Translations under genes and position numbers: made by a program
Notes under the pieces: generated by a model
Databases searched by the model: none
Told to the model about the DNA's origin: nothing
Seen by the model: the letters and a program-made list of their open reading frames with translations, nothing else
Part shown: positions 30,291 to 52,110 of the stretch, piece after piece
Position numbering within the stretch: the stretch's first letter is position 1
Layout of the letters: every line of letters begins with the position of its first letter
Assembly: GCA_029204225.1 (NCBI GenBank)
Contig: CM055095.1
Coordinates: 54,649,612 to 54,713,611, forward strand
From: Diphasiastrum complanatum
Lineage: Eukaryota > Streptophyta > Lycopodiopsida > Lycopodiales > Lycopodiaceae
Direction of reading: 5' to 3'
DNA: 64,000 nt

Positions 30291-31065
30291 TGCTAGAAAG
30301 AGGGAGGTGCAGTGAATTGGTTCGACAAGTCGAAGATTATACGCGACTTATCGAGCACAGTAGGGGAACTTAGCCTTCTTTCCTAATGCATTCTATGCCT
30401 ATCAATATTGAACAAAACATAATGACAGAAGTCACGTTCAATTTTTTAGCAGCCAACTTTGAAATCATTAGCACTAAAGTGATTTTGTAGCCAAACAATG
30501 ATATGTATTGAATAAATTAGACAAAAATAATAAGAGATTTATCAGTTACAAATAGCTACAGAGAAGCATACATTCTGACATGATACTAAACGCAATAAGA
30601 AGGTAGATTGATTCACTAAGTAGCATGTACAAATCAGATGATGAGAAAAAAATTGAGTTAGAGTTAAAGAGAGTCTTTGATGATCAGCTATTTATACTAA
30701 ACAATAACGTGTATCTAGTAGAAAAACTAATTATGGCGCAGATCGCAATAGCCAGTTGGCTGCATCCATCCAGTTAGGACTTCCCAGAAATTTACTTGCA
30801 AAGTAGTCAGGGCAGGTCTTTAACTTCAAATCAAGCGGAACAATAACTGTCATTCTTCGACATCGTCGACTCCTTTAACTTTTGTTGGCATCATCGATAA
30901 GTCGGATGATGTCCAATATGTCGGATCCACTTGTCGAACAATTCGCAAGTATTTCTGTAGATTGTGAAGAAACAAAAATAAAACTGCAAAACTGGATAAT
31001 AAAGTGGATGAAGATTAAAGATCAATTAATTGGCAGAATCACTTGAATAGTAGAATAATCTAGCA
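30291..31065 (-). mobile_element. 3' LTR of copia 5
   Basis: 775 bp with 6-bp terminal inverted repeats TGCTAG and C-TAGCA. On the minus strand it follows a polypurine tract (AAAGGGGAG, 31,066-31,074). TATAAATAGCTGATCATC on the minus strand near 30,680-30,700 is the promoter box, conserved in the LTRs at 38,272 and 51,101. Confidence 0.85.
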
Positions 31066-31074
31066 CTCCCCTTT

Positions 31075-31583
31075 AATTTGAATCCATGAATGCTTTGACC
31101 TTCAAACTTAGTTCTACACAAAATTTTGTGTGTGCATCCAATCTTAATGCTTTAGTAAAATATCCATTGTCATATCTTGCGTTCAACAATACTGCAAGTT
31201 TACCTCTTTGTCAGAAGCAAAGTCTACCTCTTTGTCTAGGATTGGCTGATAAAGCAATGGCATATTGATTATCACAAAATAAAGCTGTCGGAGCATATTG
31301 TTTTAGACTAACATATGAAAGTAAGTTTCTCAACCATATTGCTTTCGTTGTAGCTTGAGAGGCTGCAATATACTTTGATTCAGTAGAAGATAGAGCTATC
31401 GAAGTTTAATTGCGATTGTTCCATGAAATAGGACCATTGTTGAGGAAAAACGTAAATCCAGAAGTGGATTTACGAATGTCTACATCTTCTGCCCAAATAG
31501 CATCTGAATAACCACTGAGAAATATTGTGTTTGTCATTGTCGACTCCTCCATAACAAATGCATAAGTCCATAGTAGCTCAAAT
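31075..31583 (-). pseudogene. Copia 5 RNase H
   Basis: Minus-strand text YSDAIWAEDVDIRKSTSGF, NNGPISWNNRN, then a stop, SIALSSTESKYI, AIWLRNLLSYVSL and LFCDNQYAIALS, with indels. It parallels copia 4 RNase H residue by residue and breaks off exactly at 31,584, the first base of the inserted LTR. Confidence 0.88.
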
Positions 31584-31707
31584 TGTTGGATTATTCTCCT
31601 TCTTACCACCATGCACGAAAAGTTTTCTTTCTAGATGTTGGAATTATTTTTATTCGAGTTCATTTCTTTTCGAGTTCGACCTATCTTCTGCACACCTCTT
31701 TTCGACA
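31584..31707 (+). mobile_element. Shortened 5' LTR of copia 4
   Basis: TGTTGGATTATTCTCCTTCT is identical to the start of the 3' LTR at 36,039. It ends TTTTCGACA flush with the primer site. About 0.9 kb present in the 3' LTR, including the promoter, is absent. Confidence 0.8.
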
Positions 31708-31719
31708 TGGTATCAGAGC
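31708..31719 (+). other. Primer-binding site, initiator Met-tRNA
   Basis: Exact copia consensus TGGTATCAGAGC directly after the LTR. Confidence 0.95.
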
Positions 31720-31871
31720 GGAATCTCTAATACTTGATATCTTTCGCGATATCAAATTGATAATCATACTCTTCAATTATTTTCAACCTTTCAGTATGAG
31801 AGAATTGATCTCCTATTGTTGGCATTACTACATCTTAGCGTCATCGATACATTTGACAGACTAAGTTCCAG

Positions 31872-32898
31872 ATGGATTTTCAAAGTAAAGCTGGTCTTAT
31901 CACAGACAAGCTGAATGGATCCAATTATCATTTGTGGAAATTTAAGATGAAGACCTTGCTAATCGCCAACAAATTATGGGATGTTGTTACAGGTATAAAA
32001 GTAAAACCTGAAGACAATGACTCAAAGTGGAAATCGAAGGATGGTAAAGCTTTCACGCTTATTGTCCTCAATGTATCAGATACACATATTGGACATATAG
32101 CTGAAGCTAAAACATCAAGAGATGTTTGGGACATCCTGAACTTACTATATGACGTGAGGGACATAACTACTAAGTTACATCTACGAAGGAAATTCTTCAC
32201 ATTCAAGATGTCTACTGTTGATTCTCTTCAAAGTCACATTAACCAGTTTAAGAGTCTCTTGCAACAAATGGCCATTGTTAGATCAGTCATAGACGATCAA
32301 GACGCAATTATGACATTGCTTTCAAGCTTGCCATTATAGGAGTTCTAATTCCAAAAAAGACCCTTTGTAAAGATTCTTTTTATATTTTTTCTTACACATG
32401 GACCAATCAAAACACTCAAATTTGAAATCTACGTAACGTAACTTTTTGAGTCCACATTTTGATTCCACACTAAAAATGACATAACTTTTTAGTGGTAAGT
32501 CCGAATTTAGCGAAGTTTAGTGCATTGGAAAGTGCTCAACAAGGGCTTTCCAATGATATGTTAGATGACATACTTTTAGGCTATGATTAAAACGTTATGG
32601 CAAGTCAAAAGTATTAGTGTTATAATATTTTAATAATATAAACTACATCTTGCACGAATTTTTAAAGGGTCTTTTTGGAGCTCAAAACTTCTCTAATGCC
32701 TCTACATATGAGAACTGGGTGATGATCATATCGACACGCTCAGATTTAACTCTTACTAGAGTTATCACTATGTTGCTGCAAGAAGACAATAGAAGAAGTC
32801 AAGACACTTTGTCTACTTCCTCCTCTCAAGATGTCAACAAAGGCTCTAAGCGACAGAAGCAGAAAGCTCCAAGAAGGCTGCAACAAATCAGTTCTTGA
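31872..32898 (+). pseudogene. Copia 4 gag, interrupted by an insert
   Basis: Starts MDFQSKAGLITDKLNGSNYH; LWKFKMKTLLIANKLWD and LRRKFFTFKM are typical gag capsid motifs. TAG follows SSLPL at 32,337. A 328-bp insert (32,351-32,678) splits it, after which AQNFSNASTYENWVMI and VITMLLQEDNRR continue the capsid. No zinc knuckle is seen before the protease. Confidence 0.88.
32351..32678. mobile_element. MITE-like insert with terminal inverted repeats
   Basis: CCAAAAAAGACCCTTTGTAAA at 32,351-32,371 pairs with TTTAAAGGGTCTTTTTGG at 32,661-32,678. It is AT-rich, non-coding and interrupts a reading frame that continues on both sides. I could not fix a target-site duplication, so the superfamily is open. 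Confidence 0.7.
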
Positions 32899-34200
32899 TT
32901 CTGGAGCAACTCAACACATGACCAATCAACGTGAGATTTTTAACTCCAACACGCCTTAGAGCACGAAGAAATTTGTTCATCTTGGTGACAATAGTATCAC
33001 AGTATTGAAGGTGAAGGTACTGTAAGATTGCAATTTCAGTATGATCAATTCAAACTATTATCAAAGGTCTTATACGTTCCTAAACTCTCTACAAATCTGT
33101 TATCAGTAAGTAGAATTACAGATTTACGTCCTAAGGTAGAATTTGAATCTGGTCAATGCAAAATTATTGATAGGAGTAATAAGATCCTTGCAGTCGACAA
33201 GAGACAGGGTTACTTATATAGATTGGTACATTGTTATTCTGAGTCTAGTCAAGCCTTGAAAACCTCTGTTCTAGTCAATAAAGCATTACTATGGCATCAT
33301 CGCTTAGGACACTTGAATTATGCATCTGTTTTGAACATGTCCAAACAAGTTATGGTTCTTGATCTCGACTATCCTTCTGGTAAGGTCGATCTCCCTATCT
33401 GTCATAGCTGCATCTTTGGAAAGCAAGCTAGGATTCCTTTTAGATCAAACCACATGCATGCAGCAAAAGGTCTGTTAGATGTTGTTCATACAGATATATG
33501 TGGACCTATGCAAATTCCTTTATTGTTAGATGCAAAGTACCTCATTACTTTTATTGACAAATTTTCTAGAAGAACAGCTGTTTATTTCATTAAATAGAAA
33601 TCAGAGGCTTTCATCAAATTTAGACAATTCAAAGAGCATGTTGAGAATCAAACTGGCAAATGAATCAAAGCATTGAGGTTAGATAATGGGGGAGAATACA
33701 TCTCCACCGAATTCAAGGAGTACTGCCTTAGCAACGACATTGAGCAACAATACATTACCTCCTATTTGCCTCAGTCAAATGGTCTTGCTGAGAGAAAGAA
33801 CAAAACCTTAGTTGAATCGGCAAAGTGCATGTTATCACATGTGACACTTCCAAAGTGCTTCTGGGCTGAAGCTGTTTCAACAACAACCTATATTCAGAAC
33901 AGATGTCCTACTAAATGTCTCTCAGACAAAACACCATTTGAAGTTTGGACAGGTACCAAACCTTCTTTATCAAACTTACGAGTTTTTGGATGTACTGCTT
34001 TTGCGCAGATTCCTCGTGATCTCAAGAAGAAGCTCGACTTCTAGAGTATCAAATTTATTTTCATCAGCTACACTACTTCAAATCAAGCTACAAGTTGTTC
34101 GATCCCATCGAGTCGAAGATATTCACTAGTTGGGATGTCATCTTCATCGAAGATCAGTTTCAAGTCCTCAAAGGAAAGGGCAGTCCCCATGTAGCCGACC
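32887..34200 (+). pseudogene. Copia 4 protease and integrase
   Basis: Protease VLDSGATQHMTNQREIF (DSG at 32,897-32,905). Pre-integrase LLWHHRLGHLNYASV and CHSCIFGKQARIPF. Integrase Asp in HTDICGP (33,493), Asp in RLDNGGEY (33,682), Glu in LAERKNK (33,790): exact D-X35-E. Then FWAEAVSTTTYIQNRCPTK and NLRVFGCTAFAQIP. Stops occur at 33,596, 33,661 and 34,042. Confidence 0.9.
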
Positions 34201-35374
34201 TATTAGATTCTCCTGACGCATTGAACTTTCCGGTTCCTTAGTCGACTATTCCCATTAAAGGTCCAAGCTCTGCTACTTCCGACAAACAACAAATCAACAA
34301 TGAATCAGAAGATGATGATGTTGCAATTTAGCAACTATAGTATGATGAAAATGATCAACTTCCTCTATTATCCAGAAGATCATCAAGAACTAGCAGACCA
34401 CCTCACAGATATATCGGCGAGTCTGCAGCCTACCTTGTTCATGAACCGACGTCTGTCCAAGAAGCACTCGGTCAGCCTGATTCAGATATCTGGAAAGAAG
34501 CTATGGATAAAGAGTATTCATCTCTTATCAAGAACCAGACATGGACAATTGTCGAATTACCTGCCAGCAGAAACGTAGTTGATTGCAAATGGATTTTCAA
34601 AGTCAAGTACAATGCAGATGGAAGCATCAATTGGAGAAAGGCATGACTTGTCGCCAGAGGATTTTCTCAAGTATACAACGTCGATTACATTGAGACCTTC
34701 AGTCCAGTAGTCAAGCATTCTTCTATTCGACTTTTGCTATCATTTGCCGCAGCAGAAGATTTGGAAATACATCAAATGTATGTACAGACAGCATATTTCA
34801 ATGGAGTTATCGAAGAAGACCTTTACATGGTGCAACCCAAAGGTTATATTATCGAGGGTAAACACAATCATGTTGTAAACTCCATAAGGCACTTTATGGC
34901 TTGAAGCATACTGCTCGAGCATGGTTTCAAAGGATCAATACGTTCCTTATTGATCACAGCTACACACCTAGCTCTTTAATTTCAAACGTTTACTTCAAAG
35001 CAATGCATGAGTCTTTTATCATTATCACTTTATACATGGATGATACATTGTTTTTCAATAATAGTACCGATCTGATGAAAGAGGCCCAGACAATGCTATC
35101 TTCTGAATTCGACATGACCGATCTGGGCGAAGCTCATTACTACCTTGATATACAAATCCATAGAGACAGAAAACAGAAGTTGGCTTACATTACACAACAA
35201 AGGTACATCTACAACATATTAGTCAGATATAATCTGATTAATTGCAAGTTAAATCTCTCACCAATGGAACCAGGTCTCAAATTGTCAAAGGATTAGTGTC
35301 CCCAAACAATTCATGAGAAGCAGCAGATGCGTGAGTAGCTCTATCATTCTATTATAGGATCTCTTATGTAAGCC
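34201..35374 (+). pseudogene. Copia 4 reverse transcriptase
   Basis: DIWKEAMDKEYSSLIKNQTW-like start, NVVDCKWIFKVKYNADGS, FSPVVKHSSIRLLLSF, then QMYVQTAYFNG, in which the Asp of the usual MDVxTAFLNG motif is replaced by Tyr, and a catalytic box reading YMDD (35,033-35,044) rather than the usual copia YVDD. DLGEAHYYLDIQI follows. Several stops and frameshifts are present. Confidence 0.88.
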
Positions 35375-36031
35375 ATGATCTGTACCAGGCCAGACATAGC
35401 TTTTGCAGTCAGCTCTCTCAGTCAGTTTATGACTAACCCTGGTGTAACACATTGGAAAGCTCTTATCAGAGTCATGAGATATCTTCGAGCTACTATGGAC
35501 TTTTGCATTTGTTATGGAGCAGTCGGCAACGACAAACTCAATTTACTCAGTAATTACACAGATGCAAGGTGGGCAGGAGATGTAGACACTCGTAAATCTT
35601 CTTCCAGATTTCCATTCTTCCTCAACAATGGTCCAATTTCCTGGAACAGTTGCAAACAATCTTCGATAGCTCTGTCTTCCACTGAATCAGAGTATGTTGC
35701 AGTCTCTCGAGCTACAAAGGAAGCAATTTGGTTGAGGAATTTACTCTCAGATATCGGTCTGAATCAATATGCTCCGACAATATTATTTTGTGATAATCAA
35801 AGTGCCATCTCTTTATTAGCCAGCCCTAGATTTCATTCTAGGAGTAAGCACATTGAACTAAAGTATCATTTTGTCAGAAGCAAAGTTCTCAACGAAGAGG
35901 CTAGATTGCAGTACTGTAGAATGCAAGATATGACAATAAATATTTTTACCAAGGCATCAAGTTTGGATACACACAGAAGATTCTGTGTAGAACTAAGTTT
36001 GATGGTCAAGGCATTCAAGGATTCGGATTAA
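35375..36031 (+). pseudogene. Copia 4 RT end and RNase H
   Basis: 218 codons uninterrupted: TRPDIAFAVSSLSQFM, YTDARWAGDVDTRKSSS, SIALSSTESEYVAVSRATK, LFCDNQSAISLLA, FHSRSKHIELKYHFVR. The catalytic Asp, Glu and Asp of RNase H are all there. The stop is followed at once by the polypurine tract AAGGGGGAG (36,030-36,038). Confidence 0.92.
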
Positions 36032-36038
36032 GGGGGAG

Positions 36039-37079
<1,041 letters not shown>

Positions 37080-37139
37080 CTACGGCGACTGTTATGAATG
37101 GGGTCTCATCGGTTCTTCTAGTCTCTCAAAGTAGCTGAA

Positions 37140-37440
37140 GTTACTGAAATAGTTGCGACTAATTATTTAGTGACAAGTCGAGCCTTTCTTTGAATGATGC
37201 TTCCATCTCCCTTGTATTTGATTTTGAATATCCATTTGCAATCAACTACATTTCTGATGGCACGTAATTTGACAATAGTCCAAGTCTAGTTTTTGATAAG
37301 AGATGAATACTGTTATTCCATAGCTTCTTTCCAAAGATCAGAATTGGGCTGACTTAGTGCCTCTTCGACAATAGTCAGCTCTTGGACAAGGTAAACTACA
37401 GACTCATTGATATATCTTATAGGTGGTTTGCGTTCTCTTG
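37140..37440 (-). pseudogene. Copia 5 RT N-terminus
   Basis: On the minus strand: LVQELTIVEEALSQPNSDLW, KEAMEQQYSSLIKN, a stop, then NVVDCKWIFKIKYKGDGSII and KARLVT. RT is cut off here; the palm is missing between this point and the RNase H at 31,583. Confidence 0.8.
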
Positions 37441-37526
37441 TCGATCTTCTGGGTAATGAGCAAAGTTGATTATTTTTATGATGTTGTAGTTGCTAAACTA
37501 CAACATCATCATCTTCGGATTCGTTG

Positions 37527-37902
37527 CTAATAAGCTATTCGTCTAGACGAGCCAGGACCTTCAATAGGAATAGTTGACTTGAGAACATAGGTGTTCGATA
37601 ATTTGGGAGAGTCCGATAGTTTGGCTATATGAGCTTTGCCCTTACTTTTGAGGCCAATAAACTGATCTTTGATGAAGATGACATCCCGGTTAGTGAATAT
37701 CTTCGACTCGACATGATCATACAACTGATAGCTATATAGAAGTAGTGTAGCTGATGAAAATACATTTGATACTCTGGAAGTCGAGTTTCTTCTTGAGATC
37801 TTGTGGTATTTGTGCATAAGCGAGACATCCAAAAACTTGTAAGTTCAATGATGATGGTTTGGAGACTGTCCAAACTTCATATGGTGTTTTCTTGTAGAGA
37901 CC
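37527..37902 (-). pseudogene. Copia 5 integrase C-terminus
   Basis: PYEVW.., LQVFGCLAYAQIPQDLKKKL and SSRRYSLTGMSSSSKISLL in alternating frames, matching copia 4. It is joined to gag at about 37,902 by an internal deletion that removed protease and the integrase core. Confidence 0.8.
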
Positions 37903-38075
37903 CACTTTGAGTCGGTTGTGTCATCTTCAAGCTTCACATCCATACATGTGACAACATCCCACAACTCGTTGGCGATTAGCAAGGTCTTCATCTTAAATTT
38001 CCACAACTAGTAATTGGATCCATTTAGCTTGTCTGGATGAGGCCGACTTTACTTTGAGAATCCATCTGAAACTTT
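37902..38075 (-). pseudogene. Copia 5 gag N-terminus
   Basis: MDSQSKVGLIQ followed by frame-shifted equivalents of the copia 4 gag start; nucleotide identity with 31,872-32,035 is high. The text ends at GACTCAAAGTGG, where the deletion junction lies. Confidence 0.75.
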
Positions 38076-38259
38076 AGTCTGTCGATAAATCAATGACTTT
38101 AAGAATGGCGTCATGCGATGCTACAGTTGGAAATCAATTATCTGATACTAAAATTTGATACCACAAATTGAAGACCATGATACTATGAAAAGTATCTAAT
38201 GATATTGCTATAATATCATGAAAAATATCAAATAGTAGAGCTCTGATATAACAGTATAT

Positions 38260-38271
38260 GCTCTGATACCA
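38260..38271 (-). other. Primer-binding site of copia 5
   Basis: Minus strand TGGTATCAGAGC, a perfect match to the initiator Met-tRNA complement, flush with the LTR end CCAACA. Confidence 0.95.
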
Positions 38272-38770
38272 TGTTGGAAAGGGAGAGGTCAAGTGAATTG
38301 GTTAGACAACTCAAAGACTGTATGCGACTTGTCGAGCGCAGCGGGACTTAGCTTTCTTTCCTAATGCATGACTATGCCTATCAATATTGAACAAAGCATA
38401 ATGATAGAAGTCACATTCAATCTTTTAGCAAGGCTGCAATAAAAAGGTCAACTGATTCAGTAAGTAGCATGTACAAATCAGATGACGAGAGCACAAAACA
38501 ATTGTGGATAGAAATCGCATACTCTAAGCTATCTCTGAGTAGCTGAAAACTCTGTCTGATGCACTTCCCCTGATAAGTAGTAAGCGCGAATAGCAATACT
38601 CTAATAGAACTCTAAAAGAAACTAAGCTAGAAAGCTGAGTTAGAGTTAAAGAGAGTCTTTGATGATCAGCTATTTATACTAAGCAATAATGTGTATCTAG
38701 TAGGATAGCTAGGACTTCCTGAAAATTTACTTGCAAAGTAGTTAGGGCAAGTCTTTAACTTCAAATCAAT
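38272..38770 (-). mobile_element. 5' LTR of copia 5 (U3 truncated)
   Basis: TGTTGGAAAGGGAGAGG onward matches 30,291-30,840, with an extra ~200 bp in the middle that also matches the 3' LTR of copia 4. Homology ends at CTTCAAATCAA, so the distal U3 is missing. Confidence 0.8.
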
Positions 38771-38933
38771 TGATGCAATCAATATTTGCAATGAAAAAAA
38801 TGTAGAAGATCAATGGATACCAAGAATATATCGAAAATATCAATGGATCTTGATGCATCCCTCTGCAAAAGGCTCATTCTGAAAAAGAAAAAGATCGGAT
38901 AACATATATAGAAGCTCTTGGAAAGGCAGGATA

Positions 38934-40085
38934 ATGGATTTTAAAGTATCACTTGCCGGTCAATCTATCACGGAATTTTTAGTCCAGCATGCTTATCTTC
39001 ACAATGAGCTCAACATTCATGATTTGAATCCAAATGATAGAAGAAAATGCAATTGTAAGTTTTCAGATTTAATTTCTTTAAGGTTAACATTTTTTTTGAA
39101 TTATATTTTTCTTGTGATATTTTTGTTGGTTTTGCATATTTGTGTCCATCAAATTTTGTTGAATGGCAAACAGTTCAATCGATTGCATGAAGAATTGATG
39201 TCATACATTTAGATATCGGTATTTTACAATAGAAAGGTCGTTCTCCAAAATCACTTTTAGAGTCGGGAGTTTTTTTTTATGATCACATCTATTTTTCTGA
39301 TAAAAATGGTTTAGTTGGTAGATTAGAGCCATATCCTCTACCAGATTTTTCGAGTGAGGAATGGATTTCTCCTGATGCAGCAATTTCAGAAAGTTTTCGA
39401 TCTAGGCTATATATTGATATTCAGAGTATATTAAAATGTAGCACTGGATCAAAGAATAATAAATTAAGTTGGTATCTACCTTTTAATATTTTCGTTGATT
39501 TTTTTTTCAAATGCAATGTTCGGAGAACAAAAACAATGTTTATTTGTAAGGACTTGAGTGCTGAAATAATCGTCGAGTTGTTGGATGATGGTTGGGATAC
39601 AAAACAAAATCAGCAATTTGAGTGCAGAGTATGTTAGTCATCCATGACATTTAGATATCACATCGAAAAACAAATGCTCACTTTGTTGCTGTATTATAGA
39701 AGATGGATTAAATGCAAAAATGTTTGGAAGCCACTTGATCAAGATTTTGGTATAAACCCTAAAGAGCAACTTCAGATAACAGTGAAAAGAAATGACAACA
39801 TTCTTGCAATGGTTGAGGTCGAGAAAGATTGGTGTCTCAATCACATTCGATCAGAACTAGACATGTTGCAATTTGATCTACCTCAGTACTATCAATTTCA
39901 ATTGAATGGTATAAAGGTACGTTATGCCATATAAAAATATTTTCTTTTTTCTATTTCTAAGTGAATAAGTTTCATAAAATATATTAACTAAAACAATTTC
40001 TCTTGTGCAGGTAAGAGTAAGGCAGGAAGAGCATATAAAATGCAAAGATATTGGAACATCCATCGAAAAGATCCATAGATTATGA
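38934..40085 (+). pseudogene. Spliced pseudogene, family not recognised
   Basis: Exon 1 (MDFKVSLAGQSITEFLVQ...) ends at a GTAAGT donor near 39,057. Exon 2 begins after CAAACAG at about 39,167 in the matching phase and runs to 39,916; exon 3 is 40,011-40,085, with a GTACGT...TGCAG intron of 94 bp (39,917-40,010). The joined frame is open except for a TGA and two TAG codons. Motifs include YFSDKNGLVGRLEPYP, WYLPFNIFVDFFFKCNVRR, EVEKDWCLNHIRSELD and QYYQFQLNGIK. Splice phases agree, so this was a real spliced gene, not a processed copy. I do not know the family. Confidence 0.65.
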
Positions 40086-40390
40086 ACTATGAAATTTTGT
40101 ATTATGTAATACAATTTTTTGTATACATCATTTTTGAAAATATATGAACCACTTTTTCTATGAGGCTCTTTCATTTCTATGATCTCCATTTCCATGGTGC
40201 AAAACACAATGTAATTGCAACTGGATAATATAAGTTTTCGATAACAAGATTCATTGTCTCCTACAGGAAATGCATTATTTCCATTGGAGAGATCTTAAGT
40301 CACTTGAACTCCAGTGACCACTACAATTAGATATCGAATCAATGCTTGCCCTTGTTGATGTCTCGTATATATCGGTTGTATTTTTGGTCT

Positions 40391-40586
40391 TCATTGCCTT
40401 GGTCTGTATTGTCCTTGTCTTGGCATATTTGGATATGTTCAGAAGATGATCTGATCAAAGCTTTGTTGCAACAAATCTAAGTTTGTTGCATGTTTAAATT
40501 GGTTGTGACAAAGGTTTGATCAGATCATCTTTCTGAACTTATCCAAAAAAAAACCATGGTAAAGGCAAGGCAGACCAAGGCTATGA
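40391..40586 (+). ncRNA. Imperfect long hairpin, possible small-RNA precursor
   Basis: The 5' arm (TCATTGCCTTGGTCTG ... GATGATCTGATCAAAG ... TTGTTGCAAC) pairs over about 85 nt with the 3' arm (GGTTGTGACAAAGG ... CAGATCATCTTTCTG ... CAGACCAAGGCTATGAA), with a short AT-rich loop. Size and mismatch pattern are compatible with a plant miRNA foldback or a small MITE. No known miRNA was recognised. Confidence 0.45.
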
Positions 40587-40758
40587 AAAACAAACATGTC
40601 GGAAAACCGTAGAAATTGAAGATGAATGAATCATAACTTGAATTAATAACAGATAAAAAAACAAGTAAGAACAACAATAGAAAAACTATAAATATATTTC
40701 TATTAAAATTTTCTGTACATGTGTCTCATCCACATCAAGTGAGATGAATATTTAATCA

Positions 40759-41935
40759 CTAACAACTATCTATGATCTCTAAATCCATTTCTCTAGTTGG
40801 AAGTAGCTTGGGTGGAGAACACTCGGCCACTGCAACTAGCACAAGAATTGGAGTCCCCAGTCTGACATATTGGAACATATCATCGTGCAGACTTTTGAAA
40901 TCAGGGAAATCAAATACAGCCATGAATTGAAGGGGAAAAAATGCTACATCTATAAAGAATGGGATCTGGAAAAACTCCATCCAGTACTGAATGGCCCCAC
41001 CTCCTACATTGTCACCTAGCATTTTATCCTTACTTTCTAATTCACCTATATCTAAACTAGAAAATGGGAGACCAGCATTGGTCTTCAGCATCCTAAAACT
41101 GCATCGAGGACCTAAAGCTTTAAGATATGTGTTTAACAATTGGTTCAAAATTGATTCTACCTTTACATTAACAAAATCATCTAAATCATTTCCTAGAACA
41201 GGAGAAGGGGAACTAATATTTATGGGGATAGGAGGAGAATTAGGAAGAGGAGATTTATTAGGAGAGGAAGATTTAGCAGGACAAGGTAAAGATAGAGTTA
41301 TGGGAGAAGAAGAAGGAGACTTAGGAGGAGAATTGGGAGGAGAATGCCTAGAAGAAAGAATCTCATCCAGAGGAGATGGCTTGGAAAAATCCCTCGAATT
41401 ATTTGGAGGGTTAAGAGACCTCCTCTTCTTTGAAATACTCCCGCTCTGTATACGAATAACAAGCCGGGATGGTTGAGATTGCTTTCGTTTTCTCCTCTTT
41501 GAATCCTGTTTTGGAGGAGAGGATGAAGCAGGTCTAAAGTATTCTGCAAATTTGTCATATGTGTCCCAAAGCCTGAACACAATGTTGAAATCCTTGGGCA
41601 TGCCTCTTGGCATGGACAACTGCAACAACAGTATCTGAAAAAAATTTCACCTGGAAATCCTCATATGCAGTGTGCAGCGCCTCAATTGTCGTTACCATCC
41701 ATCTCACATCTACAAATAGACTTCTTGTAACGTCTTTGATGGATCTCTGTATGTGAGCTTTCGAAATCATAAGATTATTTGTCTTCTGTAGCTTCCGAAT
41801 ATCCTTGAGCCAGGGTGGGTCTCTTCTTCTGTCCCTTGGCCTAGGAGGAGGTGGTAGTGGTGGATTTCCTTGACCTGCTCCTGAGATTGGTATTCCACCA
41901 GGGTGGCCTCGTGCTATTTGCTTGGTCCACGCCAT
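40759..41935 (-). pseudogene. Histone-H3-like gene with long C-terminal extension (frameshifted)
   Basis: From 41,935 the frame starts MAWTKQIARGHPGG, a variant of the H3 tail, with the H3 Lys4 equivalent kept and the Lys9 position Gly. After a Pro/Arg-rich spacer come the histone-fold helices: WLKDIRKLQKT (residues 42-52), HIQRSIKDVTRSLF (61-74), DVRW (76-79; Trp as in CENH3, where canonical H3 has Phe) and EALHTAYEDFQ to VVHAKR (106-111). At 41,602 eight bases of the H3 VTI codons are missing. The next frame continues with MPKDFNIVFRLWD, the H3 ending, and stays open for 281 codons to 40,759: basic SKRRKRKQ, a long Ser-Pro-rich tract, then a less biased C-terminus. H3 has no such tail. It could be a CENH3-like or transposon-captured histone. 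No intron seen. Confidence 0.7.
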
Positions 41936-41940
41936 TAATG

Positions 41941-43712
41941 TCCAATATCGGATTAGTGTGCAAAGAAGGATAACCCAAGATCAGAAGTTAGGTTGAGTAC
42001 GTCGAACCGATACCTGAGCTCAACCAAACCGATAGCTGGTAGCGGATGGGTGCGCGCAAGTAATAGCGGATCATAGGAAGTTTGTTTTGAGCGCACTGAA
42101 TTGATATCACATGGATGTAGAAAACTGTAAGAACTTTAAGCAAAAAAAATTTAGCGTCGTCCATCAGTATATATAGAGAAAATCCGAAATGATTGCAAAT
42201 GTGGTGAGTTGGATGTCTGAGACTTGGATTACGATGACGATTACTCCGAGGCTTGTCAATCAAATCAAACTAAATATCCATATATCATCAAAATGATTAG
42301 TCGATATCAAATAAACCAAAATTAATTTCAACTAAAGTATGGGCACATCTTCAATTAAATCTACAAAAGTATGGTCACATCTACAATTTATTGCTGAAAT
42401 TGACAAGGTTAAGCTATAAATATCTGACTTTTTTTATATCCAATCATTATAATTTCAAAAAATTCCAATGGCCATTATTTCACCCAATAGCAAATCGATG
42501 TGCATATACTGCATGTGAAAACAAAAGAGGCTATTCTTGTGCGCTGAACCGATATTGGAAGATAATATGAATGATCAAAGCTTGACTCGATAGATTCTCC
42601 TTAGCTTTGGACAGTATGAAGAGTCTATCGAATCAATATTTGATTATGCAAAATACCCTCCAATAATTTCAAGAAAATTCCAAAATCTTTTTTTCCTACA
42701 ATAGCGATTCAACGCGTGCAGTCCAAGTGAAAAATCATTGTCTTCTCCAAAGGCGCGCTGATCTGATAGCCAGTATTTCATCTGATAACTAATCGATGCG
42801 CATATATAGGATGTAAAAGCCAGAGGTGCTATTCTCGCATGTTGAATCGATATTGGATGGAATATGAATGATCAGAACTTGACTCGATAGATTTTGCATA
42901 ATTTTGGACAGTATGAAGAGTCTACCGAATCAAGCTTTGAGCATGCATAATGGGGTCCAATAGTTGCCAATATTTCATAAATATTTTTGTTCCTACAATA
43001 GTGATTTGACGCGTGCAGTCCAAATGGAGAATAACCATCTTTTGTCAGGCACGTTGATCCAATATCTAATATGCAGAAAAATTATATCGGAGAGCATTAT
43101 GAACGACTAATGAAAATGTTCTGAATGAACACTATCTCAAAAGAAAAAATCTTGTCTTTACGGTGCTTAAATAGGACGAGAGATTGTAATAATTCTCCTC
43201 TACATGTTTTTCAATGATGTCCATTTATCATTTGTTTATTATTTGTTTAATGATTATTCAAGGAGGCTATTGATTGAATATTTCATGTATTTCGGTGCAG
43301 GTACAGATTCTAGGGTCAGGGCTAATGATGATTCGTTGAATCTAGTGACAGACTAGTTAATGTATTCCGACGTAGGTACAAATTTGTCTCACTTTGATTG
43401 GTGGATAAATATAGGCTATGTTTCTGAATTCGTTATTTGACAAATGTATGGCTGTGATCAACATGAATTGGCTATAAATATGGGCACCACTTTTATTTTG
43501 AACTCACTAGTCTTTTTGTTTTCTTTCTATCTCGCGATATCGAATCGATGCACGCCTTCCCAAACAGTGCATGGTCAGATTCATTCAGGCGTGCTGAATC
43601 GATATCAGCCACTTCTGATGTGTGTTCGCGACAAATTTCAATCTCGTCCTAACGATATCAGATCAACTTCTTGTCCTCTATCGATATCATTCTATCGCGT
43701 TGAACCGATATC
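41941..43712. repeat. Array of GATATC-type motifs and a 300-bp tandem repeat
   Basis: A degenerate 18-bp word, GYGCGYTGAAYCGATATC, occurs in the same orientation at about 42,091, 42,539, 42,753, 42,836, 43,048, 43,588 and 43,696, with partial copies at 42,001 and 42,024. Related AATCGATGYGCATAT words are at 42,491 and 42,792. About 42,480-42,785 and 42,786-43,075 are two diverged tandem ~300-bp units sharing CTTGACTCGATAGATT, TTTGGACAGTATGAAGAGTC and ACGCGTGCAGTCCAA. The array fills the gap between the minus-strand histone-like gene and the plus-strand gene at 43,720. Confidence 0.75.
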
Positions 43713-43719
43713 AAGTTTA

Positions 43720-45163
43720 ATATGACTAGTTCCTCCATGTCCTCAGATAACAAACTTCTGGATTTTTTTAATGCCAGTGACATTCCATCTGAGAAATTAG
43801 AGTATTTTGCTAGTATTTTTTTTTGCTTACTTCAATATCGATAAGCTAGTTTATGAGAATCGTTATAATTTAATTTCTTATCTTGATAATTTTTCTCAGA
43901 TTATCAGTACTCCTGTTTTGGATATAGATAGTTTTTGTTTCGTTGATTTTCAAGACCTTGTACATTCCCAACCATCCTCTAAGCATAAACACAATAGAAA
44001 GTACTCTAACTTGCATGACCATTTTCAAAGAAATATATGTTGTGATATCCACAAAAGAATATGTCGTCTTCTTATCAAAGGAATGACATTTGTCTTTTAC
44101 ATATCTGCTGAAATTCTGGATGATGAGTCTGTTGAATCTTCAACTTTTCCATTGATCGAAACATCTGCACCTGCTCCAGTTGATGTAGATGATGTAGATG
44201 ATGCAGATACTGATATAGGGGTTGAAGATGAAACATCTATGGCTTCAGATTATCAAAAAACTCTCCCTCATTCTATAATCCTCTCTGATTCTCTTCCATC
44301 TGCATCTCCTGTTAATCAATTAACTCTACTCAATGTTCCCTTATATTTTATAAATAATGAAAGTTATATTTCATTTAATGATATAGAAGATGTTTGAATT
44401 TGAGAGAGGATGAAATCCTCTCAATTTTTGCTCAGAATTTATCTAAATTTTTTGACATTGTTGATTACTCATATAATGACCTTGAAAGTGAGATAGATTA
44501 TGATAAAGATGGCAATTTGAGATCTGGCAATGAGGCCTTGGAGGCCATGACTGAAAAATCTAAAGCCTATGAAAAAACTTTGCCTACAGAGAAGGAATTT
44601 TTGGAATTCCAAAAAATATATCCCCCAAGGCCTAGATATATATTCCCTCTGAAAATGTAGAGGCCATTGGAGGACATGACATTAGCATAGCAAACGTCGT
44701 TGATTACGATGACTATGATCTGGTACGTAGATATTATATTGGTATTGATATTGTTCAGTTTTCTTATTGAGTTTGCAGTGTTATGTATAATTCTAAATTT
44801 ATTTTCTTTTCTCGTTTAGAAGATGCTATTGAAATAGATGCCTTTGGTATGAGACATGGCGTTGTCCGTGGTGTATCAGCCGGGAGAAAAGATGTGTCTC
44901 TATCTCATTATTTGAAACACTTTCAAAATAATGAGATTTGTGTATATCATTCATCTTTTAATCCATATGCAACCATTGTCATTATGGCCATCAAATCATT
45001 ATTAGTTTGTTTAGGAGGCCATAAGTATGCAAGAGGAACATATAAAATATTTTTTGTGAAAAGAGATTTGGCTATTAAGATATTGGATTATACTCCCAAC
45101 GAGACTACGAAAAGATCATTTGCAATGGCCCTTTATTCAGTTTACATTGATATGAGCAAGTGA
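43720..45163 (+). pseudogene. Unknown acidic spliced gene
   Basis: ATG at 43,720 opens MTSSSMSSDNKLLDFFN; one extra T in a T8 run at 43,816 shifts to the long frame with FNIDKLVYENRYNLISYL. An acidic stretch (PVDVDDVDDADTDIGVEDE) follows near 44,180, then, after a frameshift at 44,396, REDEILSIFAQNLSKFFD. A GTACGT donor at 44,722 and a TTTCTCGTTTAG acceptor at 44,819 bound a 98-bp intron-like gap. The last part reads FGMRHGVVRGVSAGRKDVSL and YHSSFNPYATIVIMAIKSLL, ending at 45,163. No family recognised. The density of small frameshifts suggests a pseudogene, though each part is long and open. Confidence 0.5.
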
Positions 45164-45445
45164 AAAAATTTAGAATTTTTGGATCCATATGAAAGGAGAT
45201 TATTCCTTATAACAATACCATCCGTCTGAATCTTTAAGAAGAAGATGATGATAATTAAATAATTTTTTGTAATAGATTTTTGATATATTACAAGGATCTC
45301 TCTTTTGTTATGAATTTGAATGCCTTTCGAAATATCGTAATACTTGGCAAGTTTTTAGCTTGATATCTAAATTGTGCTCTTCTGTAAAACCACTGAAAAA
45401 GTTGAACTAAATATTTATTTCTTGAATTGTGTCCCCCATGGTTTG

Positions 45446-47693
45446 CTATCTATGAAATGCTCCCCTTGCTTTCCAATGAGATTTTTCCATGCCTTGTGAT
45501 GACCACATACTTAAGCTCCCATATTCCTTTGCAAAATAAGTTGCATGATAAAGAAGGATGTGCTGCAAACAATAGTTTTGATTAGTTACATCAATAGAAA
45601 AAAATATAAGCCTGAATGAGAAAAGTACCAGATAATGATATAGATTAGCACCATGTAATGAGTAACGTTGTCTTTTCCCCAACAATCATGTACAAATTTT
45701 ACAAATGTGGTGCAATGATTTTTCAAAGTCCTCATATCTTCTGATGATAGGTTTTCTTTCCTGATAACACCTATGAGTTTGTCTAAGTTGGTCCCTTTTC
45801 CACTCGATTACTTCCTTCCAGTGTTCGTGTGGCTTGAACAATTTCTCTCCAAATTTTGTATCTGACACTTGATTCTTTGCATGTGTGATTGGATAAGAAT
45901 CTTCTTGCTTTAGCACCTCCAATTGATGGCTTATTAGGAACGTTTCTTTTTTTTTCCAGAGAGTCTGTCACTTTTTTCAATCATGACATTCCCTTTATGT
46001 AGTCCTGCATTTGACAGAACTATTTTCAACCTCCTAATTGCTGCTTTAGCCACAGACTCCGGTTTATGATTCCATGCTAGTAGAATATGCAGGTAAATAA
46101 GTTTTTCAATAATACGAACCTCAGAGGCATGCAATGTGCATATGTGAACATATTTTAATGGAATTGGCAGAACACTTTTCATATTTGGATCTTCAGCTTC
46201 TCTTGTTGGGCCAATGTTTGTTGATCGTCCCAAATTCATATTGTAGCAATCCTTCATGCAATAAAGACATGGATGCTTTGATGTTGCCCCATTCGACTGT
46301 AAATTTTTCACCGTCCAAATGTCTCTTTATAATCTCGCCATAATTTGTTCTTGAAAATATCCATGAAAGTATTTTATGGTCCTCTTTCAAGACCTGTAGA
46401 GAAACAAGTAATGCATGACATGTCAATAAAAACTGGCAAGGTATGAATTGTTAATAAAGATATTCTAAATGAAAATTGAAATGTATACCTGAAATGCCGC
46501 CAACCACCATATGTGATTTTTTGATTGAACACTAAACATTCGATCATTTGTATCTGAAATTTTGTTCATCAAAGTGACACTCACTCGTTCCAACTTCTGA
46601 CCCCTGATGATTTCAGATTCATCCAATTTTACTACAATAATGATCTTTTCATTTACTTGATGTTCGTCTAGTTTATAGAATCAAATAATGTATTTTAGAA
46701 CATTTTCAATATCAAAAAAAATATTATTGCAATCATTGTAATTGAGCTCACCATATTCTGATTTGTATAATTCAGTTATATGAAGTGGTTGGCCAACTAC
46801 TTTGAATATTTCGTCATTATAAAAATTTCTTGCTAATCTTACCCTATATGGACGCGAAAGATAAATTTTCTTCACCATCACTTGGGAAAAAGCTTCTTTA
46901 ACTATTCTAAAAAAAATAGAATAAGCATTTTTGCTAATTCCAGATACATCACATGCACCTTGTATCACATTCGCATCCAAGTATGATTGAACCATAATCA
47001 AAACAGTCTCTACAATTTCATTTTTCATTTTTTATCATTTCCTTTGCTGACTTTCTTGATAAAACATGACTTAAAGATGATCCAATGCTTGAACGATCTG
47101 TTAAATAGTTCTTTGCCACCAAACATGATCTGCAACAAACATATGAAACTTAAATTATGTTTAATAAATAAATAATCCATGTTATCAAGTGCAAATCAAA
47201 CTTAAATGACATATACAAATCAAATAAACAGTTTATATGACAACATACTTGAATGCTTGAATTCTTTTTTTCTGATTGCCGCTATGTGTAGATAAGTCAT
47301 GAATATTCTTCATCGATACTCTCTTCCTTTTCCTCTTCATCATTGCCTTATTGATAACTTTTATATCAACAGTAGATTTTAAACTCTCGGATCGCAACTT
47401 TTCCATGATTCTAACATTTCTTGGGTTAATCCCCGAAGAGTAGTGACAGTAGCATTCAACTCTGACATAGCATTCTTGAGTGCATTGTTTTCAGCACTAG
47501 TGTGTTGCACATAATGAAGCAATTGTTCATTTGCACGTTGCAATTGTTGATTAGCAAACTGTAATTGTTGATTAAAACAAGATATGCTATGCATTCCAAT
47601 ATCACGCAACCTTTGACAATATCCAAGTAATCCGCTATTTCCTTCACATACATATATGAGAAGATGAGTTACGGACTTAAAATCTGGACACAA
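45446..47693 (-). pseudogene. Decayed spliced transposase-like gene
   Basis: Right to left: a coiled-coil segment (FNQQLQFANQQLQRANEQLL), a basic MKRKRKRVSMK, intron 47,130-47,248 (GTATGT...TGCAG), AKNYLTDRSSIGSSLSHVLS, QSYLDANVIQGACDVSGIS, VVKLDESEIIRGQKLE, intron 46,394-46,488 (in phase, AFQ/VLKE), then EDHKILSWIFSRTNYGEII and, after a frameshift, NGATSKHPCLYCMKD. HWKEVIEWKRDQL, GKDNVTHYMVLIYI and YGSLSMWSSQGMEKSHWKA end it. The combination of a D-x-K segment, PCxYC pair and GQGxEK motif recalls multicopy transposase-like proteins of eukaryotes; I cannot name the superfamily. Stops and frameshifts make it non-functional. Confidence 0.55.
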
Positions 47694-48274
47694 ATTGGTA
47701 GCTGGGTCATTAGGATCAATGATTGTCCATCATTGGTGGACAACAACTAGCATCATAATTTGTTTGCTCACAATCAATATAGCTCTTACATTTTGTCATA
47801 AATTGAATGTGGACTTACACATTGAGTGAAATATGTCCCTTTCTATATAGCAGCTTATAGTTTGCAGAATTGCACCTCTATTCCTTTTTTATTCCAAATA
47901 CACTCCGTACAGGTATGTATATGGCAAACATCGTGATGTTTATAAGTAATGGTAGCACACATACGATGCTATGCTGTTTAAACTAGTTCAAGAAACAGGT
48001 TTGTTTCAAATCTAAGTATGTGCGTATGTCATTGTTGTTGATATTCGAACTTGTCGATAACCAATTTTTGAAGGAGTCGTCTTTCGTAACAACCATGACG
48101 TCCTCACATGAATCTCTCACGACTGCTATTCAGGTTAGTATTACAAAACGGTATTCAGGTGAATACTTTACAAGCGCAAAACAATGGTCATATCTACATG
48201 AATGTTAGTATCTACATGAATGGACGTGGTAACAAAAGGACTTAATAACACAATGATAGAGAGTAGAAAAATGT
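47694..48274. other. No gene seen
   Basis: AT-rich gap between the transposase-like gene and the next retroelement. No inverted-repeat end matching the left side could be picked by eye. Confidence 0.4.
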
Positions 48275-51100: not shown

Positions 51101-52110
51101 TGACTTTTAATCTACATCCATTCATTTATCCAGTTGTTGCAGTATTACTCGCGTTATCGCACAATTTATGGAAACACAAGAAAAATTTATTAGTTAGTTC
51201 AAAATTGACATCAATAACAAATCAATAATAACATCGACAAGTAATTATTGAGCGACGATCGAAGGGGGTCAAATAATATCATCAAAAGTTTATAGTCTGC
51301 TTATGACCTCTTACGTGTAGCTACGAGCTCTTACATTACGGGCTTTTACACTTGCTTACGGACCTTCACTCATTATGACTGTTTACGAAATCTTATGATT
51401 ACGACTTCCTAATTGCATAAGTGACAACGCAATATGGCTAAGTTCTAATTGCAACCTGGTTAAACGGCTGCCGTCAACTGTCATTTGGATATGCCCATAC
51501 AACATTCCTAACTAGTATAAATAGCTGATCATTTTCTCAATTAAATATTATAATCAGAGAAAAAAAACGTAGAAATCAATAAAGTCAGTTGATTCAATAA
51601 CTCAATTTCTGATAGGGTATTGCTAGGAACATTTCTCTACTTATTAGCGAAAATGTATTAGACATAAATGATCAATATTCATAATTGTTGACGGGTACGC
51701 AGTTGCATCTGTTATTCTCTTGTGCTCACAATTCATCTAATTTGTACATGTGACTTACTGAATACAATCCTATAATTTTATTGCATTTAGTATTTTATCA
51801 GAATGAATGTATGGCTTTTTTGATCAATCGTTATCTCATTTTGATCTCTTATAGTTTTGTTTGAACATTTAGCACTTACGAATATCAATACTTCTACTCT
51901 GTTTATGTTTGTCTAAATAATCAATCTCATAGATTCTGATGATTTTAAAATTACAATCATGTAGAATCAAACACAACTCTTGTTGTGATAATATGGTTCG
52001 AATTTAATAGGCGCAGTCATGCATGGAAGGAGGCCATTCCGCAGAGTCTGTTTTGCATCTATCCAATGCAGTTTTTGTAGTGTCGGCCTTCTTTACTTTT
52101 TCTGACATGA
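51101..52110 (+). mobile_element. LTR fragment of the copia 4/5 family inside gypsy RT-RNase H
   Basis: CTTTTAATCTACATCCATTC and ATCCAGTTGTTGCAG match U3 of the LTR at 31,065; GTATAAATAGCTGATCATTT near 51,527 is the family promoter box; AATTTGTACATGTGACTTAC and AGTCATGCATG match R-U5 of the LTR at 38,272. The TGTTGG start is missing and no duplication was found. Probably a solo LTR that lost its first ~40 bp. Confidence 0.7.

Follow-up and report, generated by a model that had tools for sequence, protein, structure and literature searches.

The window, a stretch of 64,000 nucleotides from the Diphasiastrum complanatum genome, carries on its minus strand a broken histone H3-like gene that runs on into a Ser/Pro-rich tail (Table 1). 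The minus-strand frame from position 41935 begins with MAWTKQIARGHPGG, and the fold then runs to HAKR. This part (41935-41603) matches Pfam family PF00125 with an E value of 3.7e-11 (43.8 bits, cut-off 26.4), whereas none of five shuffled versions matched a Pfam family. The comparison of profile with shuffled sequence upholds the H3 homology that an earlier note on this DNA had claimed. In a PDB search with the window histone ORF, H3 and CENP-A chains scored alike, with E values of about 1e-11.

Helix α3 (MPKDFNIVFRLWD, MPKD) follows directly after HAKR, but in the next frame. Among the 61,716 stop-free 13-residue stretches in the six-frame translation of the window, the MPKD stretch is the top match to H3 helix α3, and the relatives C5 (HAKRVTIMPKD) and C11 (HAKRMTIMSKD) keep the junction intact. 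The earlier note had placed the MPKD ending in the next frame after a loss of 8 bases, and both results confirm this. The fold is otherwise of the H3 type, with αN, loop 2 and α3; the loop 2 residues VTI are missing from the window copy. Splicing or recoding around the frameshift was considered and, judged from the sequence alone, is unlikely, since VTI would stay missing. The 8-base loss is absent from all 32 other aligned rows, which represent 31 distinct copies. Three of these rows (L003, L005 and L006) carry different 8-base losses near the same site; copies of this kind were favoured in sampling because the query itself carried the shifted frame.

Counted from MPKD, the second frame stays open for 280 codons until a stop that ends at 40759. 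The observed stop-free stretch measures 295 codons, whereas 500 dinucleotide shuffles of the locus produced none longer than 174. Its last 74 codons lie beyond the C5/C11 stop point, past which the C17 copy likewise continues in a longer open frame (417 versus 364). The earlier note regarded so long a frame beyond a frameshift as unexpected for a pseudogene. The terminal branch of the window copy in the tree described below is ~4% and its gene contains one net frame break; it is therefore a plain dead copy, and the open frame needs no special reason.

Table 1. Features of the H3-tail gene and of the surrounding element remnant in the window.
Feature	Positions	Strand	Basis or remark
H3-like histone (N-terminal tail, αN, α1, α2, to HAKR)	41603..41935	-	Pfam and PDB matches, alignment
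Continuation of the histone ORF	to 41555	-	out of the histone frame past 41603
8-base loss, frame-shifting	41602..41603	-	aligned rows; private among the copies compared
Remainder of the H3-tail gene in the next frame: α3, basic stretch, QSQP..KKRRSL block, Ser/Pro-rich part with SPxK, C-terminal part to GAIQY	40984..41601	-	
87-base deletion, in frame, compared with other copies	site 41144	-	
74 codons past the C5/C11 stop point (GAIQY), and stop codon	40759..40983	-	other copies are homologous as far as 40838
TATA box of the H3-tail gene	42168..42175	-	~235 bases before the ATG
Element remnant	38769..47720	-	homology with the C5 and C11 copies
Frame T pieces, transposase candidate	45449..47720	-	common to copies C5, C11, C2 and C16
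Frame B pieces	43801..45163	+	
Frame A pieces	38934..39931	+	

A repeated gene with a fused tail

The H3-like frame is a repeat. We searched the D. complanatum genome (1,744,706,496 bases) with the window histone frame, and all 150 places scored match it at 72-100% identity, some of them duplicating one another on unplaced contigs; a first look gave 5842 candidates, which is a loose count. For detailed comparison we used 32 copies, made up of 30 loci less one (it is the C5 copy) and three longer copies (C5, C17 and C11). The set includes three near-identical duplicates, and its copies were selected for resemblance to the window's histone protein, a choice that tends to enrich conserved residues.

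The histone part and the QSQP block of the tail occur together in 30 of the 32 copies, and 27 have the C-terminal part as well. Other copies with the same tail thus exist, and the fusion of fold and tail suggested in the earlier note stands. A complete open frame is present in three copies (C5, C17 and C11); the other 29 lack one in the alignment, and small frame-breaking indels are frequent among them. The C5 protein (MAQTKQTARGHSGG ... HAKRVTIMPKD ... GAIQY) has 351 residues and aligns with PDB H3 chains over residues 1-131 with an E value of 1.2e-18. In the better-kept copies, the gene is apparently intronless and encodes a protein of ~350 residues, in which an extension of ~215 residues follows a complete H3 fold.

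The extension is rich in Ser and Pro and contains SPxK motifs. Four [ST]Px[KR] motifs are present in the window tail, compared to a mean of 0.67 in shuffled sequences, of which a fraction of 0.003 reached four. SPxK-type motifs bind the minor groove of DNA in other histones. Upstream of the gene, 28 of 31 aligned rows (the row of the query copy included) retain the TATA box TATATATA, in an aligned stretch that differs by 6-29%. The 32 copies form a star-like tree whose tips are long and which has one clear split. The two subfamilies so defined have the same fusion, the same Gly at position 9 and the same TATA box, and must therefore have split after the fusion arose.

In a protein search with the tail, the sole match was P0001 from D. 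complanatum, with an E value of 0.035. The likeness is beyond chance: the alignment score of 192 compares with maxima of 77 in 1000 shuffles and 116 in 1000 local shuffles. P0001 lies on contig C16 (100% identity over 243 residues) and is a hybrid, with residues 1-146 matching another repeat and residues 145-243 matching the tail family. It contains seven [ST]Px[KR] motifs, a number reached in none of 2000 shuffles, and is 67% identical to the C5 tail at the DNA level. No histone match was found within 1.5 kb of P0001, which is a more distant, tail-only relative. The earlier note had named a tail unlinked to the histone in other copies as evidence against the fusion; no such separation occurred in 30 of the 32 copies, while P0001 provides a distant example of the tail by itself. 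The annotated gene O6H91_16G009700 (L061, C16:4838227-4838955) combines two repeats, of which one supplies the QSQP and Ser/Pro tail without the histone.

A protein search with P0001 matched only P0001 itself, and one with the histone ORF gave two candidates, neither of them a match at E 0.001. Rfam, tRNA and NCBIfam searches returned nothing, and no viral relative was confirmed among viral contigs.

Element ends and other frames

Four stretches downstream of the gene share one end point, ...GGGCCCATTTTGAGTTCTAATATCCCCTAATG. In the C2 copy, the left end (CATTAGGGGAAATATGGGCTCAAAATGGGCCC...) is an inverted repeat of that end, and 30 of 35 bases are alike between it and the right end of C7. Both inverted-repeat ends are present in three copies, 11,319 bases apart in C2, 10,534 in C8 and 9,093 in C6; the right end of C8 is reduced to its last 21 bases and that of C6 has diverged. 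One set of seven copies retrieved with ends showed both ends in two, and single ends were detected for further copies. The three copies with both ends thus have terminal inverted repeats (TIRs). The earlier suggestion of a mobile element was right.

In CACTA/EnSpm elements the TIR starts with CACTA and the insertion is flanked by a 3-bp target duplication. The ends found here read CATTAG or CACTAG, and no target site duplication was seen in any of the three copies with both ends, which may be decayed or rearranged. Within the window, a TIR scan found neither element end adjoining the remnant, and no LTR or TIR lies directly around the gene; the ends came from other copies only. A Copia LTR (30296-30834 and 38277-38769) cuts the remnant at 38769. 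The Copia element at this edge spans 30296-38769, its LTR pieces being 85-93% alike, and short pieces of this LTR recur twice in inverted orientation, at 51513-51532 and 51733-51763.

The window copy is a truncated, dead copy of the element, in which the H3-tail gene is broken. An assembly error at the frameshift, with the copy in truth intact, is very improbable. It would account for a gene with one net frame break only, but the window copy also has the 87-base deletion, shows no element end and is cut by Copia, and small frame-breaking indels are common in the other copies.

Frame T, a transposase candidate with 11,404 first-look candidates by a loose count, lies upstream of the H3 gene on the same strand in four of the seven long loci (C5, C11, C2 and C16); it is not beside the H3 gene in the stretches retrieved for C17, C7 and C11:3.79M. 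Among the matches listed, 19 of the 150 H3 places, counted by eye, have T on the same strand at a distance of 2.5-4.4 kb upstream, some of these being duplicates on unplaced contigs. At C16:7.65M it is on the opposite strand. Frames T, A and B matched no Pfam family above the cut-off, and no hAT dimerisation or other known transposase domain was found in the T pieces tested. A ratio test on T, B and A gave values not clearly lower than those of wrong frames. The better-kept copies would appear to combine frame T with the H3-tail gene and with two frames, A and B, on the other strand.

Just downstream of the gene is a 218-base palindrome (40380-40597, ~75% paired), also present in the C17, C5 and C11 copies, which could be a MITE or some structured end. 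Upstream of the gene, 42468-43072 holds two tandem units of ~297 bases that are 76% alike, and the unit cross-matches in many other copies. Elsewhere, three repeat units at 1507-2816, ~0.5 kb apart and 81-91% alike, contain long GA runs, and the window holds many long simple repeats.

Taken with the other copies, the locus is almost certainly part of an element that carries an H3-tail gene. A different origin is conceivable, in which the host encodes a long H3 variant whose gene was repeated by duplication or by the transposon while a functional host member persists. Copies with intact fold and tail would fit such a gene. At least 150 dispersed places, together with the element surroundings at the six long loci compared (C5, C11, C2, C16, C7 and C11:3.79M), speak against it, and we consider it improbable.

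Histone residues

Lys4 is present in all 32 copies, and position 9 is Gly in all 31 copies with letters there. A single lysine precedes the fold in 24 of the 32, and the conserved N-terminal tail lysines of H3 other than Lys4 are mostly absent. In the fold, His113 is present in 32 of 32 copies and Asp123 in 30 of 31.

The earlier note took the Trp of DVRW as a sign of CENH3 kinship. This Trp is a trait of the whole family (31 of 32 copies), and loop 1 has H3 length, two residues shorter than in AtCENH3 and CENP-A. Among the 60 matches listed of 172 in the PDB search with the C5 copy, all are H3. Judged from these features, the protein belongs to the H3 family by its fold and lacks the longer loop 1 of CENH3, and the kinship is not supported. 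We also rejected a lone fusion gene or a lone CENH3-type variant at the window locus, which is extremely improbable. A CENH3-type variant would fit the Trp that loop 1 shares with CENH3 and the equal scores of CENP-A and H3 with the window copy, but the high copy number by itself already refutes a lone gene, and the H3-length loop 1 and the best match of the open copy to H3 point the same way.

Substitution patterns

For the subfamily comparison, we set 13 copies against 15, with four left out, using a 70% majority. In the histone part the differences between subfamilies fall 2, 0 and 11 times on the first, second and third codon positions (11 of 13 on the third; P = 2.1e-4), whereas in the rest of the gene the counts are 5, 7 and 6 (6 of 18; P = 0.59). 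The pattern is similar with a 60% threshold (3, 1 and 13 in the histone part; 6, 7 and 10 in the rest), with an 80% threshold (1, 0 and 10; 4, 5 and 5), and without the three duplicates (2, 0 and 11; 5, 7 and 7). Between the subfamilies, the histone part shows 10 synonymous and 2 nonsynonymous changes. Among singleton changes the third position is not in excess (33, 34 and 26), the outcome that decay following insertion would give; this speaks against protein-similarity sampling as the cause of the excess. A weaker test, restricted to sites whose minor letter occurs in four or more of 29 copies, placed 33 sites of the histone part on third positions against 23 on first and 16 on second (P = 0.018); for the C-terminal part the counts are 5, 9 and 10 (P = 0.25).

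Pooled dN/dS ratios are 0.40 for the histone core, 0.39 for the N-terminal tail, 0.90 for the basic and QSQP part, 1.55 for the Ser/Pro part and 0.52 for the C-terminal part. For pairs drawn from the three open copies, the core gives 0.48-1.18 and the N-terminal tail 0.73-2.05. We put no weight on these ratios, since wrong frames of the element's other genes gave values of 0.29-1.94. No constraint was seen within the family on the tail, with its ratio of 1.55 in the Ser/Pro part.

The codon-position pattern suggests that the histone part is likely under selection within the element. The main rival reading is that the H3 gene was captured once and amplified passively, without use, the third-position excess reflecting chance, the choice of copies or a small number of source copies. 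It can draw on the 29 copies without a complete open frame, the unconstrained tail and the open-copy pairs without clear constraint. There is also a fungal precedent, a hAT element that amplified an H3 gene of which all copies except the original are described as inactivated (PMC6710886). On the other hand, the subfamilies split after the fusion, and third positions account for most of what separates them in the histone part. We regard passive amplification as rather unlikely.

Discussion

Combining the repeat data, the element ends and the comparison of subfamilies, we conclude that the window probably holds an inactive copy of a high-copy TIR element with an H3-tail gene, the histone part of which has been under selection. 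The extra part of the histone variant macroH2A is C-terminal, as is the extension found here.

H3-like genes in DNA transposons are already known from fungi (PMC3538342, PMC6710886). H3L of Pyrenophora tritici-repentis, for which ESTs exist, belongs to a hAT-like element with 26 very similar copies (PMC3538342). Like the element described here, that element is a TIR DNA transposon whose H3-like gene can be classed with neither H3 nor CENH3; it also has a further ORF and a transposase, for which frame T is the candidate here. It differs in its fungal host, its hAT transposase and the insertions in the N-terminal histone tail, and no long C-terminal extension is mentioned in the passages available (PMC3538342). 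The hAT transposon that carries H3 in Pseudocercospora fijiensis and its relatives differs from ours by its 8-bp target duplications and its hAT domain; 90% of its H3 copies are truncated, and the sections available mention no tail (PMC6710886). Outside transposons, the H3 of Medusavirus likewise extends the fold beyond α3, but that protein is viral and its C-terminal extension has 29 residues compared to ~215 here (PMC11500106). A dinoflagellate H3 of 167 residues is also reported to have a C-terminal extension (PMC4751559). MacroH2A is likewise a core histone with a large extra part, although it is an H2A, carries a macro domain and occurs in animals (PMC3380720). In the literature searched, the extension of the present H3 is the longest encountered, and no plant host, long tail or sign of selection was found for a transposon-borne H3.

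A role for the histone can be proposed from the residues that are kept and lost. The H3-tail protein would pair with host H4 and enter nucleosomes. H3K9 methylation, a main mark of silenced plant transposons, could not be placed on a protein with Gly at position 9, while Lys4 would still be modifiable. Element chromatin might thereby be kept transcribable, since the H3K9 mark could not be placed while Lys4 could be modified. The Ser/Pro tail may serve as a DNA-binding or recruiting arm. An anti-silencing role for the element-borne H3 is a tentative suggestion: a plant transposon would have its own H3, with Lys4 kept, Lys9 and nearly all other tail lysines gone and an SPxK arm added, which could possibly act as an anti-silencing histone in element or host chromatin and be selected in its histone part during the spread of the element.

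If this suggestion is true, the spread of the element to at least 150, perhaps thousands, of places with a working, Lys9-less histone fold would represent a transposon's direct answer to silencing at the level of chromatin. It would then become possible to test why histone genes are captured by transposons.
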